Origin: an uncultured Candidatus Saccharibacteria bacterium | GTDB taxonomy: Bacteria; Patescibacteria; Saccharimonadia; Saccharimonadales; JAEWBQ01 | DNA: 14,737 nt | NCBI GenBank assembly: GCA_946885745.1 | Contig: CAMPGV010000020.1 | Span: 1 to 14,737, forward strand | Direction of reading: 5' to 3' | Shown: one piece after another, positions 6,659 through 14,720 of the stretch | Layout: every line of letters starts with the position of its first letter | Position numbering within the stretch: position 1 is the stretch's first letter | Position numbers and translations under genes: made by a program | The notes under the pieces: generated by a model | Database searches by the model: none | Told to the model about the DNA's origin: nothing | Seen by the model: the letters and a program-made list of their open reading frames with translations, nothing else

Positions 6659-9016
6659 TTACTTTTTCTTTGTTGCAGGCTTTTTGGTCACCGTCTTTTT
6701 TGCTGCTGGTTTCTTCGCCGCTGTTTTGCGAGCAAAGCGACCTTTTGCTGGAGTCGCCTCGGCGAGCAACTCTTTGGCCTGTTCGTGAGTGATCGTCTTT
6801 GGATCGGTGTCCTTCGGAATCTTGGCATTTTTCTTGCCGTCGGTTATGTACGGACCATAGCGACCGTTTAGGACCTTGATGCCGTCACCAAAGTCAGCAA
6901 TGTTCTTCTCTGCTTCTGCCTTTAGTTTTGCATCGTAGAGCTCAAGGGCCTGCTCAAGGGTGATATCGTGCGGGTCGAGCGGCTTGATACTGACAAACAG
7001 CTTGTCGACTTGGATGTACGGACCGAAGCGGCCGATGTTTGCTTTAATCACCTTGCCGTCCTTGGTCTCGCCAACGGTGCGGGGTAGCTTGAAGGCGTGG
7101 AGGGCTTCTTCGAGAGTGATGGTTTCAATCTTTTTGCCAGCTGGCATTGGCGCAAACTGTGGCTTCTCTTCTGACTCAGTTGAGCCGAGCTGGAGCATCG
7201 GGCCAAAGCGGCCAAAGCGTGCGGTGATCGGCTTGTTGGTCTTTGGGTCAATGCCGATTTCGCGAGAGGCGCCAACGGTCGAGCGGTCGATGCCGCCTGA
7301 TTCAAGGATGAGTTTGTGGAATGGATCGTAGAAGCCTTGGAGCATGACGTTGCGTTCCATTTTTTCGCTGGCAATTTTGTCGAACTGCTCTTCGACTTCA
7401 GCGGTAAAGCCGTAGTCTACAACTTGCTCAAAGTGATTGCCAAGGAAGTCACTGATCAATTCACCACTTGGGGTTGGCACGAGTTTTCCTTTGTCGGCGC
7501 CAGTCTTCTCCTGGATGATTTCACGCTCAACACTGCCGTCCTTGAGGCTTAGCGATATAACATCACGTGGCGTACCTTCGCCTTCACCACGTTCAGCATA
7601 ACCGCGCACCTGGACGGTGTTGATGATGGTCGCGTAGGTTGACGGACGGCCGATACCCAACTCTTCCAGCTTCTTGACGAGGCTACCTTCAGTGAATCGT
7701 GCGGGTGGACGAGCAAAGATCTGCTTGGCGTTTGCGCTTGCAATGGCGAGTGTGTCACCTGACTTAACTGGCGGCAAGATGTCATCTTCTTTTTTGCCAC
7801 CACCATACACCCTAAGGAAGCCGTCAAAGATAATCACCTCACCCTTAGCTTCGAACTTCTTGTCGCTCGTGCTGATGGCAATAGTGATGGTCGTCTTTTC
7901 AAGCTTAGCTGGCGCCATCTGGCTGGCGAGCGTGCGGTTACGGATCAGGTTGTATAGCTTCTGGTCATATTCATTGCTACTGCCCTTTTCGACACGCATG
8001 TCGGTCGGACGGATTGCTTCGTGAGCTTCTTGTGCGCTTGACGATTTGGTCTTGAACTTACGAATCTGTGAATACTGCTCACCAAAAGCGTCTTTAATAT
8101 ATGCAGCCGCTGCGGCAATGGCTTGGCCTGATAGGTTGACCGAGTCGGTACGCATGTAGGTGATCTTACCTTCTTGGTAGAGCTTCTGGGCGCTGGCCAT
8201 AGTGGCTTTTGAACCAAAGCCAAGTTTGGCGTTGGCATCTTGCTGAAGTGTACTGGTAGTAAATGGCGCCGCTGGGTTGCGAGTTGACGGGCTGGTCGTG
8301 ATGTCGGTGACGGTAAATGAAGCGCCGATCAGGCTCTGGAGAAAGGCTTGGGCTTCCTCTTCGGTATTAAAGCGCTGTGGCAGTTCGGCCTTCACCTCTT
8401 CTCCATCGTAGGTGAACATAGCAGTTACCTTGAACTGGAAAGAGCCTTCGAACTTGGAAATTTCACGTTCACGCTCGACAAGCAGGCGAACTGCTGGGCT
8501 TTGAACGCGGCCGGCAGATTTGCCGCCGGGAACTTTTTGCCAAACGACAGGGCTGAGCTCAAATCCCACCAGGCGGTCCAAAATTTGACGAGCCTGTTGG
8601 GCGCGGACTAAGCTCATGTCGACGGTACGAGGGCTCTTGATCGCCTCTGTAATAGCGTCTTTGGTGATTTCGTGGAAGACGATTCGTTTCGTAGTCTTCG
8701 GATCAAGTTTTAATACCTCGCAAAGGTGCCAGGCGATCGCCTCCCCTTCGCGGTCTTCATCGGTTGCGAGCCAGACTTGCTCGGCGGTCTTAACGGCTCG
8801 CTTAAGCTCGGTGATGACTTTCTTTTTTTCGGGGTCAACTTCGTATTGAGTTTCAAACCCGTTCTTGACGTCTATCGGCGGCGTTCCGTCTTTGGTTTTC
8901 TTTACGATACTGCGAATGTGGCCCACGCTCGAGAGGACATGAAAATCTTTACCGAGGTATTTCTCGATAGTCTTTGCCTTGGCTGGGCTCTCTACAATTA
9001 CTAAATTTTTACTCAT
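6659..9016 (-). CDS. topA: DNA topoisomerase I (type IA)
   Basis: A 785-residue type IA topoisomerase that relaxes negatively supercoiled DNA through a transient 5'-phosphotyrosine link. The N-terminal TOPRIM domain shows VIVESPAKAKTIEKYLG, with the catalytic Glu at residue 8, and the ATDEDREGEAIAWHL acidic motif at about 100-114. The active tyrosine is Tyr287 in ITYMRTDS. The C-terminal part lacks the cysteine zinc fingers of E. coli TopA. It has instead three topoisomerase C-terminal repeats marked by RFGRFGPMLQLG, NIGRFGPYIQV and NGRYGPYITDG. A Lys/Ala-rich tail (last ~30 residues) probably contacts DNA electrostatically. Expression is from a good promoter at 9060-9088, with an AGGA close to the ATG. 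The order dprA, small gene, topA on one strand echoes the common bacterial dprA-topA neighbourhood. Confidence 0.98.
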   Translation of the reverse strand: MSKNLVIVESPAKAKTIEKYLGKDFHVLSSVGHIRSIVKKTKDGTPPIDVKNGFETQYEVDPEKKKVITELKRAVKTAEQVWLATDEDREGEAIAWHLCEVLKLDPKTTKRIVFHEITKDAITEAIKSPRTVDMSLVRAQQARQILDRLVGFELSPVVWQKVPGGKSAGRVQSPAVRLLVEREREISKFEGSFQFKVTAMFTYDGEEVKAELPQRFNTEEEAQAFLQSLIGASFTVTDITTSPSTRNPAAPFTTSTLQQDANAKLGFGSKATMASAQKLYQEGKITYMRTDSVNLSGQAIAAAAAYIKDAFGEQYSQIRKFKTKSSSAQEAHEAIRPTDMRVEKGSSNEYDQKLYNLIRNRTLASQMAPAKLEKTTITIAISTSDKKFEAKGEVIIFDGFLRVYGGGKKEDDILPPVKSGDTLAIASANAKQIFARPPARFTEGSLVKKLEELGIGRPSTYATIINTVQVRGYAERGEGEGTPRDVISLSLKDGSVEREIIQEKTGADKGKLVPTPSGELISDFLGNHFEQVVDYGFTAEVEEQFDKIASEKMERNVMLQGFYDPFHKLILESGGIDRSTVGASREIGIDPKTNKPITARFGRFGPMLQLGSTESEEKPQFAPMPAGKKIETITLEEALHAFKLPRTVGETKDGKVIKANIGRFGPYIQVDKLFVSIKPLDPHDITLEQALELYDAKLKAEAEKNIADFGDGIKVLNGRYGPYITDGKKNAKIPKDTDPKTITHEQAKELLAEATPAKGRFARKTAAKKPAAKKTVTKKPATKKK

Positions 9017-9722: not shown

Positions 9723-10580
9723 CTACTTAATAGTCCAGTGGTTGCCGCCGAGGGCGCGAATACTGCCGGCAAGTTCGAGCATGGTGAGGGCTAGATTAAG
9801 GTCTGCGGCGCTGGCGCCGGTTGTTCGCTGGATTTCCTCACCGTCACGTAAACCCGCTTGAATACACTCAATAATAGCCGTCTCTAGTGGCGTGTTGCCA
9901 AGGGCAAGGCTTGTCTGTTGTATGAGGAGATCAGGTGCGATAACTTCCAGTATGTCTTCGGTGCAAGTGGCGACGTGCGCACCTTGCTTGAGAAGTGCGT
10001 TGCAGCCGGCGCTCATGGGGCTGGTGATATTGCCTGGCACGACAAATACTTCTTTACCCTGTTCAAGCGCGTGGGCGGCCGTCGAGAGTGTCCCGCTACG
10101 TTCGGCAGCTTCGGTGATAAGGACAGCGTCGGCTAATCCACTCACGATGCGGTTGCGTGCTAGGAATTGGTAGTCACGAGGATCGGTTGGTGGTTCGTAC
10201 TCGCTGAGGAGTGCCCCGCCCTTTTCAAGGATTTGTTCAGCAAGGGTTGCATGTGTGCGGGGGTAGATCTGCTCGACGCTATTTGCCATGACGGCAAGCG
10301 TGATGCCACCAGTTTCAAGGCAGGCTCGATGAGCAATGCTATCGGTACCCAGTGCTAGGCCACTAATAATAATTACACCCCGGCGTGCCAGATCGGCAGC
10401 CAGGGTGTAAGTCACTTCTTTGCCGTAAGTAGTCGGCTTGCGCGTGCCTACGATCGCAACACTTGGGATACGTGCGTCAGGAAGGGTTCCGCGAAAAAAG
10501 ATATTCTTTGGCACCTTGTGTAGCCTTAATAATGGCTGTAAATATGGGTGTTTGTCGGGGGTGGCTCTATTGATTTTCAT
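9723..10580 (-). CDS. dprA: DNA-processing protein DprA (Smf)
   Basis: A 285-residue DprA-family protein. It binds incoming single-stranded DNA during transformation and loads RecA in the cytoplasm. The Rossmann-like core is clear: VAIVGTRKPTTYG at residues 41-53, SGLALGTDSIAHRA starting at 73, then the FLARNRIVSGLADAV block and the ERSGTLSTAAHALEQGKEVF and PGNITSPMSAGCNALLKQGA motifs. The N-terminal SAM-like domain of longer DprA proteins is reduced to a short PYLQPLLRLHKVPKNIFFRG segment. The last ~65 residues look like the small winged-helix domain (DML1-like) found at many DprA C-termini. No ribosome site is visible before the ATG. A divergent plus-strand promoter starts only 20 bases upstream. 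Together with the pilin-like gene it hints at DNA uptake ability, but no other competence gene is present here. Confidence 0.95.
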   Translation of the reverse strand: MKINRATPDKHPYLQPLLRLHKVPKNIFFRGTLPDARIPSVAIVGTRKPTTYGKEVTYTLAADLARRGVIIISGLALGTDSIAHRACLETGGITLAVMANSVEQIYPRTHATLAEQILEKGGALLSEYEPPTDPRDYQFLARNRIVSGLADAVLITEAAERSGTLSTAAHALEQGKEVFVVPGNITSPMSAGCNALLKQGAHVATCTEDILEVIAPDLLIQQTSLALGNTPLETAIIECIQAGLRDGEEIQRTTGASAADLNLALTMLELAGSIRALGGNHWTIK

Positions 10581-10635: not shown

Positions 10636-10884
10636 CGATTGGTTGCGACTGCGAGTTCAACCAAACGTACATTATACCCCCTATTCTAACTTATGTTAGG
10701 TTGTGTGCAATGTGTTACGCAGTATTCTACCCTCCACTACGTAGCATCAAAAACATTGCATGCATACTAATCCCTTTAACCGGCGGACCTCCATTATGTG
10801 TGAGGTGGGTCACGCTTAACCCCCAGGGGTGCGTTAAAGGGTTAAACGGCGCCAGGTGATGCCCACCCTTACCTGGCGCTTTTT
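10636..10884 (+). ncRNA. Probable structured non-coding RNA, ~250 nt, family unknown
   Basis: The unit is bounded by a good promoter and a strong rho-independent terminator and is full of complementary arms. TTGGTTG pairs with CAACCAA at its 5' end. CTAAC/GTTAG form a small hairpin near 10687-10699. TGCAATGT (about 10707-10714) pairs with ACATTGCA (about 10753-10760). CCCTTTAAC (about 10772-10780) pairs with GTTAAAGGG (about 10833-10841) and encloses an ACCTC/GAGGT hairpin. I checked by eye for tmRNA, RNase P, SRP and tRNA signatures and found none. A 79-residue GTG frame from 10620 crosses the region, but its start lies within the promoter, it has no ribosome site, and its composition is odd. 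A base-pairing regulatory RNA or a 6S-like RNA is possible. The RNA call rests on architecture, not homology. Confidence 0.5.
10849..10884 (+). terminator. Rho-independent terminator of the orphan RNA
   Basis: GCGCCAGGT (10849-10857) pairs with ACCTGGCGC (10871-10879), a 9-bp GC-rich stem with a 13-base loop, followed immediately by five Ts (10880-10884). This is the clearest intrinsic terminator in the window and reads on the plus strand. Confidence 0.8.
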
Positions 10885-11454: not shown

Positions 11455-11483
11455 ATTATAAAACTTTTCGTATGAGTGGTCAA
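11455..11483 (-). promoter_or_regulatory. Consensus promoter of the 136-aa gene
   Basis: On the minus strand, -35 TTGACC (11478-11483) and a perfect -10 TATAAT (11455-11460) are exactly 17 bases apart. The -35 overlaps the stop of the Fur-type gene. The predicted leader is about 80 bases and ends with an AAGGA ribosome site. Confidence 0.7.
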
Positions 11484-11899
11484 TTAGGCGACGTCGCACG
11501 ACACTGGTTGCATGTACCAGTAATTTCAAAGTGATGGTTACGTGGTGTGAAGTCTTGTTCTTTACCGATGGTCTCGATAAGTGCTTCAAGGTGCTTTGAA
11601 TGTATTTCAATGTGTCTTGAGCAGGATGTGCAAAATAAGTGATGATGATGCGGCTTTAGCGGTGATGCGAGCTCATACCGCTGTTTCCAGCCGTAGTTGA
11701 CGGCTGTCGTAATACCGAGCCTCGTGAAAAGTTCAATCGTGCGGTAGATGCTTACCCTATCAGCGTCCGGAAGGAGCTTTGTTAACTGTACGATACTGAG
11801 TGGCTCGTGGGCTCGCGTGAGTTCGTCAAAAATCTGGCGCCTGGGAGTAGTGAGGCGAAGGTGATGTTCTGATAAGAGAGTGGCAAGCTGGCTGTCCAT
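11480..11899 (-). CDS. Fur-family metalloregulator (probably Zur-like)
   Basis: A 139-residue Fur-family DNA-binding repressor. An N-terminal winged helix (about 1-80) carries LRLTTPRRQIFDEL and the recognition region DADRVSIYRTIELFTRLGIT. The C-terminal metal and dimer domain has HHHHLFCTSC (His84-87, Cys90, Cys93) and a final C130-N-Q-C133, which together give the four-cysteine structural zinc site of Zur/Fur/PerR proteins. His122-His123, Glu105 and His100/His103 could complete sensing sites. Known family members bind DNA when loaded with Zn, Fe or Mn. The divergent CobW-type GTPase and nicotianamine-synthase-like genes favour zinc, but sequence alone cannot exclude another metal. Its ATG lies just three bases from a 26-base palindrome containing its own -10, so it is probably leaderless and autoregulated. 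Confidence 0.9.
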   Translation of the reverse strand: MDSQLATLLSEHHLRLTTPRRQIFDELTRAHEPLSIVQLTKLLPDADRVSIYRTIELFTRLGITTAVNYGWKQRYELASPLKPHHHHLFCTSCSRHIEIHSKHLEALIETIGKEQDFTPRNHHFEITGTCNQCRATSPN

Positions 11900-11901
11900 T
11901 G

Positions 11902-11927
11902 GTTGCAGTATAGCATGTTACTGCAAC
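11902..11927. promoter_or_regulatory. Perfect palindrome, probable operator for the Fur/Zur-type regulator
   Basis: GTTGCAGTA (11902-11910) and TACTGCAAC (11919-11927) are perfect 9-bp inverted repeats around an 8-base centre. The site sits in the divergent gap between the regulator and the nicotianamine-synthase operon. A second, overlapping inverted repeat (TGCAA, five bases, TTGCA; 11922-11936) extends it toward the operon's -35. Placement and symmetry fit a Fur-family operator. The sequence does not match the classical E. coli Fur or Zur boxes, so a lineage-specific motif is inferred. Confidence 0.65.
11907..11915 (-). promoter_or_regulatory. Extended -10 of the Fur-type gene, inside the palindrome
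   Basis: Minus-strand TGCTATACT, an extended -10, lies within the palindrome, with seven bases between its end and the ATG at 11899. Transcription would start at or within a base or two of the start codon. A repressor bound to the palindrome would cover it. Confidence 0.5.
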
Positions 11928-11931
11928 TTAT

Positions 11932-11961
11932 TTGCATTAGATGAAGCGGAGGGGCTATAGT
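11932..11961 (+). promoter_or_regulatory. Probable promoter of the nicotianamine-synthase operon
   Basis: A -35-like TTGCAT (11932-11937) is followed after 18 bases by -10 TATAGT (11956-11961), six bases before the ATG at 11968. The -35 lies in the second inverted repeat beside the main palindrome. A GGAGGGG at 11948-11954 overlaps the spacer; it could act as a distant ribosome site (13 bases) if transcription began further upstream. Confidence 0.45.
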
Positions 11962-11967
11962 GAAACC

Positions 11968-12735
11968 ATGTTACAGAACTCTATTGAACAAGTGCTCGCG
12001 ATTGATGACTATCGCCCCTCCGCTGTTGTCAACGAGCTATTTTCTCGGCTTGTTGAGGGGGTAGTGCAAGCACCAGACCAAATGACATTTACAGACGAAA
12101 CGATGCGCAATGTGCAGCGCGCGGCTTCGGCTGCTGAAACTGAACTTGAGCTCTACTGGGCGCGGAAGATTCAGTGCGCTGAAGATCCTCGCGCGGTCCT
12201 AGAGCAGTTCCCCTATACGGACAATTACGCCGAGCTGGTTCGACGAGAAATTGATCTCGTTGAGAAAAGCGGCATGCCACTTGTGCCTAGGGCGCGGCTG
12301 TTGATTATTGGGAGCGGTCCTCTGCCGCTTAGTGCCCTAGAGTATGTACGCCAGCGTGGTCTTGTGGTTGATCATGTCGACATATCAATGCGGGCTGTGG
12401 TGCTTTGTCGCAGTGTCAGTGGGCTTTTGGGTATACAAGGTGAAACCTTACTGGGCGATGGCCAAACGGTTCACCTGGAGGCCTCATACGACGCCATACT
12501 GATAGCGGGTCTTGCTGGTGAGTCACTTGCGGATAAGCAGTCGATTATTGATCACATCCTCCCTTCCCTGCGTAACGACGGACGGTTGATTGTGCGCAGT
12601 GCCGCTGGTGCGCGACGCCTTCTGTACCCCGCGATTGAGGCACGTGATTTAGCCGGTGTGCAGCTGCTTGAGGAATACCACCCCGACGATGAAGTTATTA
12701 ATTCAGTATTTGTATATAAGAAAGAGTTATCATGA
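11968..12735 (+). CDS. Nicotianamine-synthase-family enzyme (aminobutyrate transferase using SAM)
   Basis: A 255-residue member of the nicotianamine synthase (NAS) family, which moves the aminobutyrate part of S-adenosylmethionine onto an acceptor amine to build a metal chelator. Matches to the plant/archaeal family are strong over the whole length: AETELELYWA (about 56-65, with the family's catalytic-region Glu), FPYTDNY (81-87), the SAM-site loop IGSGPLPLS (114-122), RSAAGARRLLYP (about 210-221) and YHPDDEVINSVFVYKK near the end. Length fits archaeal NAS and staphylococcal CntL (about 260-290). I chose ATG 11968 because a -10 precedes it by six bases; an in-frame ATG at 11941 would add nine residues. 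It heads a three-gene operon and diverges from a Fur/Zur-type regulator. No opine dehydrogenase (CntM-like) or transporter is present. Whether it makes nicotianamine, thermonicotianamine or a staphylopine-like precursor cannot be told. Confidence 0.88.
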   Translation: MLQNSIEQVLAIDDYRPSAVVNELFSRLVEGVVQAPDQMTFTDETMRNVQRAASAAETELELYWARKIQCAEDPRAVLEQFPYTDNYAELVRREIDLVEKSGMPLVPRARLLIIGSGPLPLSALEYVRQRGLVVDHVDISMRAVVLCRSVSGLLGIQGETLLGDGQTVHLEASYDAILIAGLAGESLADKQSIIDHILPSLRNDGRLIVRSAAGARRLLYPAIEARDLAGVQLLEEYHPDDEVINSVFVYKKELS

Positions 12736-13631
12736 AACCAAAACTTTACCTGATCAACGGTCCGCTTGGCGCCGGTAAAACAACACTCTTACGGGAGCTA
12801 TTAAAACAGCCGCAATTCCAGTCTGCGCGTGTCATTGAAAATGAATTTGCTAGCACCAGTGTCGACACCGACCAGCTACATGACCATCAGGCGGAAGTGA
12901 AGACGATCGCCGGCTTGTGTATTTGCTGTTCGACCGGAGATGAATTGATCGAAGCGCTGTTGTCGCTCGCTGATAGTCCTGAGCCGGTTATTATCGAAGC
13001 AACAGGTGTGGCAAATTCATTGATGCTGATTGAAAAGCTTATCGTGGGTAATATTCTTGATAAGTACGAACTGGCGCACGGTATTTTTGTTCTCGATGCC
13101 GTTGAGGCGGTCGCTCATCCGGACTCGCTCGAGGTGTACCACGACGAGTTACAGGCGGCCGACACACTACTTGTAAGTAAGACCGATCTGATATCGCCGG
13201 AGGACTACGATATATTGATGGAGCGACTTGAGGCAATCCGCACACTCCCTGTTGCTCCGGTAACCGAAGGTGTGTGTGACCTTGCGCTACTTGATAGGCC
13301 ATCGCAAGTGCTTGACTACTATGTGGAGCATGATGGTGAGATTAAGTCGCATGATAGCGCGGTAAACTATACAGTTCTTCGGCTCCCTGGTCCTGTGTCA
13401 CCCGCTTCAATTGAGCAAAGCTGGCCGATGCTGTCAGCCGAGTTTGGCCTGCGACGCATGAAGGGCGATATTGCCGATGGTGATGGCGACTGGTGGCATA
13501 TCGAGGCGACACCAGCACAGTGCCGCGTTCGCCCAGCAGATACTGCGAAAAATTCGCAGCTTGTCTGTATTGGCGAGGCGGCCACGACGCTGACGGCCGA
13601 AGCCTTTATGGCAGAGGTGACGCGTGGATAA
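12732..13631 (+). CDS. COG0523/CobW-family GTPase (putative zinc metallochaperone)
   Basis: A 299-residue G3E GTPase. Walker A is GPLGAGKTT (10-18). The metal-binding motif C63-I-C65-C66 is the CxCC hallmark of COG0523 proteins. The switch/Walker B region is VIIEATGVANS (86-96), and SKTD (149-152) replaces the usual NKTD guanine-specificity motif. A C-terminal CobW_C-like domain (about 210-299) includes a DWWHIEAT segment. Members such as ZNG1, YciC and ZigA use GTP to deliver zinc to client proteins and are often under Zur control. The start codon overlaps the stop of the nicotianamine-synthase gene (ATGA), so translation is probably coupled. With the divergent Fur/Zur-type gene, this argues for a role in zinc allocation. 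A cobalamin (CobW) role is unlikely, as no cobalamin gene is near. Confidence 0.92.
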   Translation: MKPKLYLINGPLGAGKTTLLRELLKQPQFQSARVIENEFASTSVDTDQLHDHQAEVKTIAGLCICCSTGDELIEALLSLADSPEPVIIEATGVANSLMLIEKLIVGNILDKYELAHGIFVLDAVEAVAHPDSLEVYHDELQAADTLLVSKTDLISPEDYDILMERLEAIRTLPVAPVTEGVCDLALLDRPSQVLDYYVEHDGEIKSHDSAVNYTVLRLPGPVSPASIEQSWPMLSAEFGLRRMKGDIADGDGDWWHIEATPAQCRVRPADTAKNSQLVCIGEAATTLTAEAFMAEVTRG

Positions 13632-14148
13632 GCAAGAGATACGCCAGCAGGTTGATCAGCTCATCGATATGTACAAGAGCTACCAGGCGGTAGCTCAGCG
13701 CCAAGCAGACTGTCGGCGCGAACTTGCAAAGGCCAAGCTGCGCCAAGTTGACACTATGCCCCTGCAGGTGGCATACGATGCTGCTACGGCGGATCTCCAG
13801 GCTGTATCTGATGCGATGACCTATGCATCGCCTTCTATATGGATGCTGTATAAGTATGAAGCGTATGCAAACGAGGCGCAGCCAATTCGTACAATGCACG
13901 ACTTTAGGGTTCACTGCAGTAAACCTGGCTATATCTGCACGAAACGGTATGAGTTTACAAATGCCGCCCTGGTTGAGCGCAGCTTGGCGCCTCTTTCTGA
14001 CGACACCGTCTACCCGGATACGCTCAGTTTAGACAAAGCACTGACGGCCGTGACGCCTCTTGAGCGTGACGAGCTGTTTATGTCGGCCTGGGGCGGCCAT
14101 GAGTATTATCGTGATGGCGATCGTGTCGCTAAATGGGAAAATATTTAG
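13624..14148 (+). CDS. Hypothetical protein, third gene of the metal operon, 174 aa
   Basis: I do not recognise this protein. It starts at GTG 13624, inside the last codons of the GTPase gene (8-base overlap), so it is probably translationally coupled and made with it. The N-terminal ~65 residues are charged and helical, likely a coiled coil (QRQADCRRELAKAKLRQV). A region rich in aromatic residues follows (about 67-81). His92, His97, Cys98 and Cys105 cluster in one short segment and could bind metal, but this is only suggestive. The C-terminus is acidic and ends WENI. There is no signal peptide or membrane helix. Its place in the operon suggests it helps metallophore synthesis or metal delivery. 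No terminator separates it from the convergent pth, whose stop is 12 bases away. Confidence 0.8.
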   Translation: MDKQEIRQQVDQLIDMYKSYQAVAQRQADCRRELAKAKLRQVDTMPLQVAYDAATADLQAVSDAMTYASPSIWMLYKYEAYANEAQPIRTMHDFRVHCSKPGYICTKRYEFTNAALVERSLAPLSDDTVYPDTLSLDKALTAVTPLERDELFMSAWGGHEYYRDGDRVAKWENI

Positions 14149-14159
14149 TAAATAACACC

Positions 14160-14720
14160 TTACTGGGTAAGCGTATGGCTTGAGACTTCGAGATTGCCTC
14201 TGCAGAAGGACTCAACAAGCTCATCAATCTTTGGGATGATTGTTTTGATCAAGAAAGCTTGTTCAGTGCTTGATAAGTTGCCGAGCACAAAGTCGGCATC
14301 GTGCATGCGATCGCGAAGGTCGTTGTAGATGCCGACGCGGAGGCGCATGTAGTCTGGGCCAAGATGGGCGTTCAGCGACTTGATGCCGTTATTGCCGGCG
14401 TCACTTCCCTTTTCCCGGATGCGTAGGCTACCAAATGGGAGAGCGAGGTCATCGTGAATGACGAGCAGGTCACTCGGGTCGAGCTTGTAGAAATCGAGGA
14501 TGGCACGGGCGCTACGGCCGGTTTCATTGTAGAAAGTTTGCGGTTTGACGAGCAGGGTTTTCTCCCCTGCTATTTGTGTTTCAGCCATTTCTGCGAAGAA
14601 CTTTGGCTTCGGCGCAAAATTAGCGCCATCTGCAAGCGCGTCAAGAATGATAAACCCGACGTTGTGACGGGTGGCGGTATATTGGCGGCCAGGGTTGCCT
14701 TGCGCAAAGATTACTTTCAT
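14160..14720 (-). CDS. pth: Peptidyl-tRNA hydrolase
   Basis: A 186-residue Pth that frees tRNA from stalled peptidyl-tRNAs in the cytoplasm. Family motifs are present: GNPG (8-11), catalytic His19 in TRHNVGF, KPQTFYNETG with Asn65, the Asp90-Asp91 pair in HDDLALPFG, and GSDAGNNGIKS with Asn111. In most Pth proteins the last motif reads GHNG; here the His is Asn (residue 110), though the following key Asn is kept. Length matches the family. The ATG at 14720 is preceded by a -10 eight bases away and no ribosome site. It is convergent with the metal operon. Confidence 0.97.
   Translation of the reverse strand: MKVIFAQGNPGRQYTATRHNVGFIILDALADGANFAPKPKFFAEMAETQIAGEKTLLVKPQTFYNETGRSARAILDFYKLDPSDLLVIHDDLALPFGSLRIREKGSDAGNNGIKSLNAHLGPDYMRLRVGIYNDLRDRMHDADFVLGNLSSTEQAFLIKTIIPKIDELVESFCRGNLEVSSHTLTQ

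Follow-up and report, generated by a model that had tools for sequence, protein, structure and literature searches.

What does a nicotianamine synthase (NAS) do in a Saccharibacterium if its gene shares an operon with a COG0523-type GTPase and lies divergent from a Fur-family regulator? This question is raised by positions 11480..14148 of a 14,737-nucleotide stretch from an uncultured Candidatus Saccharibacteria bacterium (contig CAMPGV010000020.1), which was analysed as a whole and is called the window in the following. A first-pass annotation had read the locus as a zinc-starvation module centred on NAS and had compared the latter with CntL-type enzymes. Its observation is confirmed and its interpretation is borne out in part, i.e., gene family, synteny and zinc-type regulation stand, while the CntL framing and the central role of NAS do not. 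On balance, we consider it probable that the locus encodes a Zur-type zinc-starvation cassette in which nicotianamine would bind zinc for a GTPase chaperone of two parts.

The locus comprises four genes. The Fur-family regulator (11480..11899, minus strand, 139 amino acids (aa); PF01475, E-value 6.8e-17), a putative Zur-type repressor of the cassette, is divergent from the other three, which are all on the plus strand: NAS (11968..12735; PF03059, E-value 4.9e-41), a COG0523/G3E-type GTPase (12732..13631, 299 aa; PF02492 cobW, E-value 2.8e-32) and a 174-aa protein of an unnamed conserved family with the motif HCSKPGYICTKR (13624..14148, GTG start). NAS and GTPase genes overlap by 4 bases, GTPase and 174-aa genes by 8; both overlaps and the coordinates had been annotated correctly, as judged from the open reading frame (ORF) list and the sequence. 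For NAS, the mechanical ORF begins at 11941, while the closest homologues shown (P0002, P0003) begin at the Met of 11968.

The family assignment of 11968-12735 holds, since the match to the NAS profile PF03059 reaches 141.3 bits (curated cut-off 27.1) and is near full length (profile positions 17-272 of 276). The closest solved structure by sequence is MtNAS (3fpe, E-value 8.9e-11), whose chain position 81 aligns with window E70; MtNAS Glu81 is presumably the catalytic Glu. All 37 NAS rows agree in E66, E70, Y96, GxGPLP and the NS of VINS. That is, the loss of S-adenosylmethionine (SAM) or catalytic residues, for which the first-pass annotation had suggested to look, is not seen in the alignment for E66, E70 and Y96. 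With plant rows in the same alignment, window E70 and Y96 are the equivalents of AtNAS1 E77 and Y106, which the accessible part of PMC10248798 describes as catalytic Glu and Tyr. AtNAS1 activity further requires E73 plus the VGMD loop (206-209) according to the same part of that paper.

The enzyme type was assessed in an alignment and tree of 93 rows (49 of 89 NAS homologues, 39 of 80 pattern-scan loci, the window and 4 genome loci), where NAS outside the Saccharibacteria were taken from one pattern scan with 80 of 102 loci kept. An E66 equivalent plus a four-residue loop (AGES or similar) is found in all 33 rows of the Saccharibacterial clade, window included, and also in 33 plant, fungal, actinobacterial and related rows (P0075 being one residue short). 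The four loop residues are missing in 14/14 CntL-like and 8/8 archaeal-type rows. The E66 equivalent is missing in archaeal-type rows as well but kept in all 14 CntL-like ones, where it does not discriminate; since CntL-like rows retain it, the window NAS is set apart from CntL by its loop and by the HPxDxVINS-type end. Here, the label CntL-like is derived from 4 of the 14 rows, whose sole NCBIfam match (E-value <=0.001) is CntL at 25-50 bits and thus below cut-off. Tree support is 98 for the Saccharibacterial, 100 for the CntL-like, 100 for the archaeal-type and 78 for the plant/fungal/actinobacterial clade, the joining order of the clades not being resolved.

We therefore rejected a CntL assignment of the window NAS (loop present; 13.7 bits against the NF033601 cut-off of 350). 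The partner genes are absent, as the first-pass annotation had stated, and the enzyme's loop and C-terminal motif are of the plant/fungal/actinobacterial type. For a NAS of this type, the missing histidine racemase and opine dehydrogenase, i.e., the staphylopine partners, are thus no counter-evidence. Because the loop and the E66 equivalent needed in AtNAS1 are present, nicotianamine or a close analogue is the product we would expect. Among the homologues, P0277 was rejected as NAS::GTPase fusion: its Pfam NAS match ends at residue 152 and the next stretch looks out of frame, such that we took it as a broken NAS.

The GTPase carries the motifs GPLGAGKT (Walker A), ENE, CICC and SKTD. Its closest solved chain is YjiA (1nij, E-value 1.9e-25), and its scores fall short of the cut-offs set for the NCBIfam COG0523 equivalogs that it matches. 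The 174-aa protein shows no convincing Pfam or NCBIfam match; it is predicted to be mostly alpha-helical, and a fold search returned nothing past a generic helical hairpin. A second GTPase paralogue is encoded near the cassette in the relatives G003 and G360 (L003 10665-11633, L094 7542-8522), in both cases with no operator of its own (best 9 and 8 mismatches).

The order NAS-GTPase-174 recurs in the genomes G002, G003, G004 and G360, so the three-gene arrangement is not due to chance, and the synteny survey proposed by the first-pass annotation thus finds the order conserved within Saccharibacteria. In G003 and G004, the divergent regulator also adjoins NAS. The genes pth and topA flank the cassette in G003, G004 and G360 as in the window; the G002 cassette is found at another genomic site, behind a gene that by eye is histidyl-tRNA synthetase-like. 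Among 392 Saccharimonadia genomes, 9 have the NAS domain and 3 the 174-aa family; the latter are exactly those with a close NAS (chance of full overlap of 3 and 3: 1e-7). The other six NAS-like proteins show 22-31% identity, and no GTPase or 174-aa match was found in their 3.4-3.6 kb loci. In 151 genomes of G360's family, the 174-aa protein occurs in 5, of which 4 have a close NAS. Contig sizes are only suggestive of linkage on one contig: 11 sizes are common to 62 NAS clusters and the 120 174-aa clusters listed.

Two NAS loci and a remnant were seen beside this pattern. In L001 (5949-6789), on a contig filed as Micrococcales, NAS stands alone and has an exact palindromic operator. This NAS groups with P0039 (oral Saccharibacterium) and P0049 with support 99, and its GC content at third codon positions is 66 compared to 82 in the two downstream genes (upstream gene: 65); either the gene moved between the lineages of epibiont and host, or the contig is chimeric. 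In L099 (5234-7257, G174), a distant NAS-like gene is convergent with a gene that reads as a SAM synthetase gene. Beside the G002 cassette (L002 1330-1580), there is only a stretch that by eye resembles a decayed regulator C-terminus.

Next, we consider the regulation of the cassette. The predicted operator TTACTGCAACTTATTTGCATTAG at 11918..11940 shows 3 mismatches to the consensus TTATTGCRACNNNKTYGCAATAA and overlaps the putative -35 element of NAS. It is the best operator match in the whole window, the next place having 6 mismatches. A perfect inverted repeat GTTGCAGTA-N8-TACTGCAAC at 11902..11927 (one match at <=3 mismatches; shuffles give 0.01 on average) may be another site of the regulator, which overlaps the operator and spans the regulator's own promoter. 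Reading the sequence by eye, we place a putative NAS promoter at 11932..11961 on the plus strand, with -35 TTGCAT (11932-11937), an 18-base spacer and -10 TATAGT (11956-11961). As this -10 lies six bases before the ATG, the NAS mRNA would be leaderless.

Similar operators precede the cassette, the fusion or NAS in G003, G004, G360, G397, G002, G279 and L001, and 12 of 23 positions are identical among the eight operator sites. The consensus, which was built from the cassette and NAS-like loci, occurs with <=2 mismatches in 79/392 genomes, compared to 8/392 (counted by eye) for the control pattern read backwards. For the operator's neighbourhood, 40 stretches from 38 genomes were fetched out of a larger set of sites, i.e., the exact sites apart from those of G004, most of the sites with 1 mismatch and some 2-mismatch sites mostly on long contigs. 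Left out were many 2-mismatch sites as well as the 1-mismatch sites of G258, G066, G212, G224 and G327, which looked like another TTGCAAA-type repeat. Neighbours were labelled by BLAST to seeds from the same loci, with one or two seeds per family confirmed with Pfam (PF02535 ZIP, PF01297 ZnuA, PF00950 ABC-3, PF01545 cation efflux, PF01656 CbiA-type).

The 40 stretches contain 42 operator sites, and for 25 of them a regulator orthologue starts no more than 200 bases away; that is, orthologues of the regulator adjoin the same operator in relatives. Within the same distance, ZIP starts are found for 16 sites, ZnuA for 4 (both often coinciding with the regulator gene) and an ATPase for 8, presumably CooC-like, a name we use for the PF01656 (CbiA-type) family. 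In total, 34/42 sites are near at least one of these gene starts and 8/42 near none. Operator and neighbours together presumably mark a Zur-type regulon. A larger regulon in the cassette genomes themselves was rejected: for G003 and G004, a loose 19-base pattern with 0-1 mismatches is found at the cassette sites only.

Some operator sites precede other gene groups. In L180 (5048-9766), the CooC-like ATPase is followed by a decarboxylase, a PALP/rhodanese protein and a class V aminotransferase, in L159 (5028-8239) by two class I/II aminotransferases (both by Pfam), and in L160 (2639-5001) and L161 (2628-5082) by an ORF that looks decarboxylase-like by eye. These combinations of CooC-like ATPase and pyridoxal phosphate-dependent enzymes are a candidate for a second small-molecule pathway within the zinc-type regulon. 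In L158 (4948-6212), L176 (5086-6278) and L181 (5113-6340), the operator is followed by an uncharacterised protein of 260-280 aa and one of 136-166 aa, which is His-rich near its end; neither protein of the L158 pair has a Pfam match.

The position of the cassette may relate it to zinc import. In L164-L167 (G286, G063, G375, G078), the order is regulator-operator-ZIP-pth, while the same slot in the window reads regulator-operator-NAS-GTPase-174-pth. ZIP is found in 89/151 family genomes but in none of the five with the GTPase/174-aa pair (G002, G003, G004, G360, G397; chance 0.011, without correction for kinship), and no ABC-3 (ZnuB family) match is found in these five either. Given that the cassette occupies the slot of some relatives' ZIP, the cells seem to have swapped import for chelation and allocation.

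The following course of events would fit these observations. With plentiful metal, the Fur-family protein would act as Zur on the operator between the two promoters and switch off both itself and the operon. When zinc is short, it would leave the operator and the operon would be expressed. NAS would then join aminocarboxypropyl groups of SAM to nicotianamine or a close analogue, which we expect to remain mainly a cytosolic zinc ligand rather than to be secreted. The COG0523 GTPase, with the 174-aa partner as substrate adaptor or zinc acceptor, would use GTP to pass zinc on to essential client proteins. Cells would hence either exchange "import more" for "chelate and allocate" or pair the cassette with a further uptake route. 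A far-reaching form of this idea, namely that in some Saccharibacteria zinc importers were replaced by a nicotianamine-fed GTPase relay, with the GTPase and its partner family taking zinc from the nicotianamine complex under an atypical, Cys-poor Zur, is put forward as tentative and rather doubtful.

As ZIP and ABC-3 were not found, some uptake route is needed, and nicotianamine itself might provide it, i.e., it would be exported, take zinc from the surroundings or the bacterial host, and be imported as complex, from which GTPase and 174-aa protein would release the zinc inside. Such a secreted metallophore is, in our view, unlikely. Known opine zincophores are indeed secreted. Their NAS-type genes adjoin import/export genes (PMC7438024, in the part available). 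Furthermore, G003 (by Pfam) and G004 (by eye) encode an ArsP_1/DUF1980 permease pair on the opposite strand, between cassette and pth. This pair also speaks for the zinc-starvation cassette in general, as does the binding of B. anthracis Zur upstream of an ArsP_1 permease gene, taken from an excerpt of PMC6336718. However, only 2/6 such loci have the permease pair, which follows on from pth rather than from the operator. None of the 13 window proteins scanned with Pfam is a transporter, be it exporter or importer, or a CntM-type dehydrogenase. No transporter was recognised by eye adjoining the cassette in G360, G397 and G002, nor, except for the permease pair, any dehydrogenase, exporter or importer in L003, L004, L094 and L122.

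Returning to the intracellular zinc-starvation cassette, several observations weigh against it. First of all, the regulator is unusual. It has four Cys in two CxxC pairs (C90, C93, C130, C133) and is divergent from the operon, as the first-pass annotation had stated, and E76, H84-H87, C90, C93, H122, E125, C130 and C133 are kept in 35/35 regulator rows. None of these rows shows a Cys between G70 and H84, i.e., a sensory Cys as in MtZur (2o03), where one Cys (Cys76) precedes the His run. With no Cys at this position, the name Zur is drawn from the regulon alone; the protein is Zur-like by its presumed targets and unusual by its residues. The earlier proposal of zinc-type regulation thus agrees with the operator common to ZIP/ZnuA genes in relatives but not with the missing Zur-type Cys. 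In other bacteria, Mn or Fe are further substrates of ZIP and PF01297 systems. Next, the operators of the window and of G360 are equally weak and rank last among the eight (3 mismatches). No regulator was found around the cassettes of G002 and G360 by tblastn with 35 regulator sequences, i.e., for 2/5 relatives. Both cassettes still keep the operator, and our estimate was therefore left unchanged. NAS is rare (9/392), so most of the class can do without the cassette. As the genomes are drafts and come with no completeness values, a missing ZIP or ZnuB is no proof. About 57/151 family genomes have neither ZIP nor the 174-aa gene, taking both samples as the same. Finally, G092 is without ZIP and ABC-3 match and has a different CobW-like module behind the operator. 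This locus (L163, 5044-7674) comprises the regulator, an exact operator, an SDR-like protein of 292 aa and a CobW-like protein of 541 aa and reads as another GTPase-based module.

The missing Zur-type sensory Cys also favours a regulator that senses manganese, iron or nickel, with a cassette that handles the respective metal. The ZIP, PF01297/PF00950 and ArsP_1 families are not zinc-specific, and nicotianamine handles iron, nickel, copper and manganese too (PMC10341464, as far as its text was available). On the other hand, a regulon that unites ZIP, ZnuA-type, COG0523 and His-rich proteins resembles published Zur regulons in the part of PMC6103462 at hand, and we judge another metal to be improbable.

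What remains is the role of NAS within the module. GTPase and 174-aa protein are fused in G397 and in P0210-P0213; a model of the fusion (predicted local distance difference test (pLDDT) 91.1, predicted template modelling score (pTM) 0.75) was not used for claims about domain contacts. In G397, regulator and operator accompany the fusion, and NAS is missing from both the locus and the draft genome. Because this fusion sits under the same operator without NAS, the module is probably not built around NAS, contrary to the NAS-centred view of the first-pass annotation; it looks like GTPase and 174-aa protein form the core to which NAS was added as a layer. That the pair is even the whole metal function and NAS a side branch making some other SAM-derived compound, e.g., a free azetidine amino acid, agrees with this fusion, with 170 matches of the 174-aa family vs. 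about 62 Saccharibacterial NAS clusters and with the lone NAS of L001, but is very unlikely in view of the common operator, the translational overlap and the close NAS in 4/5 genomes with the pair.

With regard to the flanks, peptidyl-tRNA hydrolase (pth; 14160..14720, minus strand; PF01195, E-value 3.7e-52) is the conserved downstream border of the slot and has BLAST matches in the relatives' loci L003, L004, L093, L162 and L164-L167. Upstream are DprA (9723..10580, minus strand; PF02481, E-value 3.3e-70) and topA (6659-9016; PF01131, E-value 1.9e-114), which also precede the cassette in L003 and L004. The window shows no tRNA and no Rfam match at gathering score. At 10850-10880, upstream of the regulator, the GC-rich sequence GGCGCCAGGTGATGCCCACCCTTACCTGGCGC resembles a hairpin; it too is without Rfam match and is present near the G360 cassette as well. 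A viral origin was rejected, as none of 18 pattern stretches in viral_contigs was related.

We know of no earlier case of a small-molecule zinc ligand and a COG0523 metallochaperone working as one regulated unit, as the proposed relay would, and of no account of how host-dependent bacteria of the candidate phyla radiation (CPR) acquire and share zinc. A literature search, which was thin on subscription papers, returned no paper on such a nicotianamine synthase/COG0523 system or on the zinc supply of these bacteria. COG0523 proteins are frequent in Zur regulons according to the sections available of PMC6103462, a 2018 review that calls their role in zinc homeostasis unclear, and of PMC2770081. 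As holders of NAS, the visible portion of PMC8485483 names only Methanobrevibacter and that of PMC12454661 fungi and actinobacteria among microbes, while azetidine synthases of another family, some in Patescibacteria, are reported in an extract of PMC11794875. The zincophore survey PMC7438024, in its accessible part, starts from CntM and would therefore miss the window cassette.

What is new in the window is hence the combination of known parts, a plant-type NAS and a COG0523 GTPase, with a new partner family, behind a Zur-like operator and in an importer's place. The operator motif would read out a zinc-type regulon across Saccharimonadia, COG0523 GTPases would gain the 174-aa family as a new partner, and the bacterial NAS of plant type is open to test by single-gene expression. 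If the cassette truly replaces ZIP importers, it would show that a very small genome can meet zinc starvation in another way.

Compared to known systems, the window NAS shares E66/E70/Y96, the four-residue loop after the LAG/LVG motif, the HPxDxVINS-type end and the near-full-length match with plant, fungal and actinobacterial NAS. It differs from them in its loop (AGES/AGET vs. VGMD), its separate Saccharibacterial clade and its operon with a GTPase. The archaeal thermonicotianamine synthase MtNAS is the nearest solved structure, but the 8 archaeal-type rows are without loop and E66 equivalent. CntL-type opine zincophore systems (staphylopine, pseudopaline) likewise place a NAS-type enzyme in a zinc-starvation setting and have the E66 equivalent in common with the window, whereas the four-residue deletion of CntL-like rows is not found in the window NAS and no dehydrogenase, exporter or importer is among the 13 proteins scanned. 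Finally, the Zur-regulated COG0523 GTPases YciC, ZigA and ZNG1 resemble the window GTPase in G3E domain, CxCC motif and a Fur-family regulator with a zinc-type regulon; unlike these, the window GTPase comes with a dedicated, sometimes fused 174-aa partner and with NAS in its operon.

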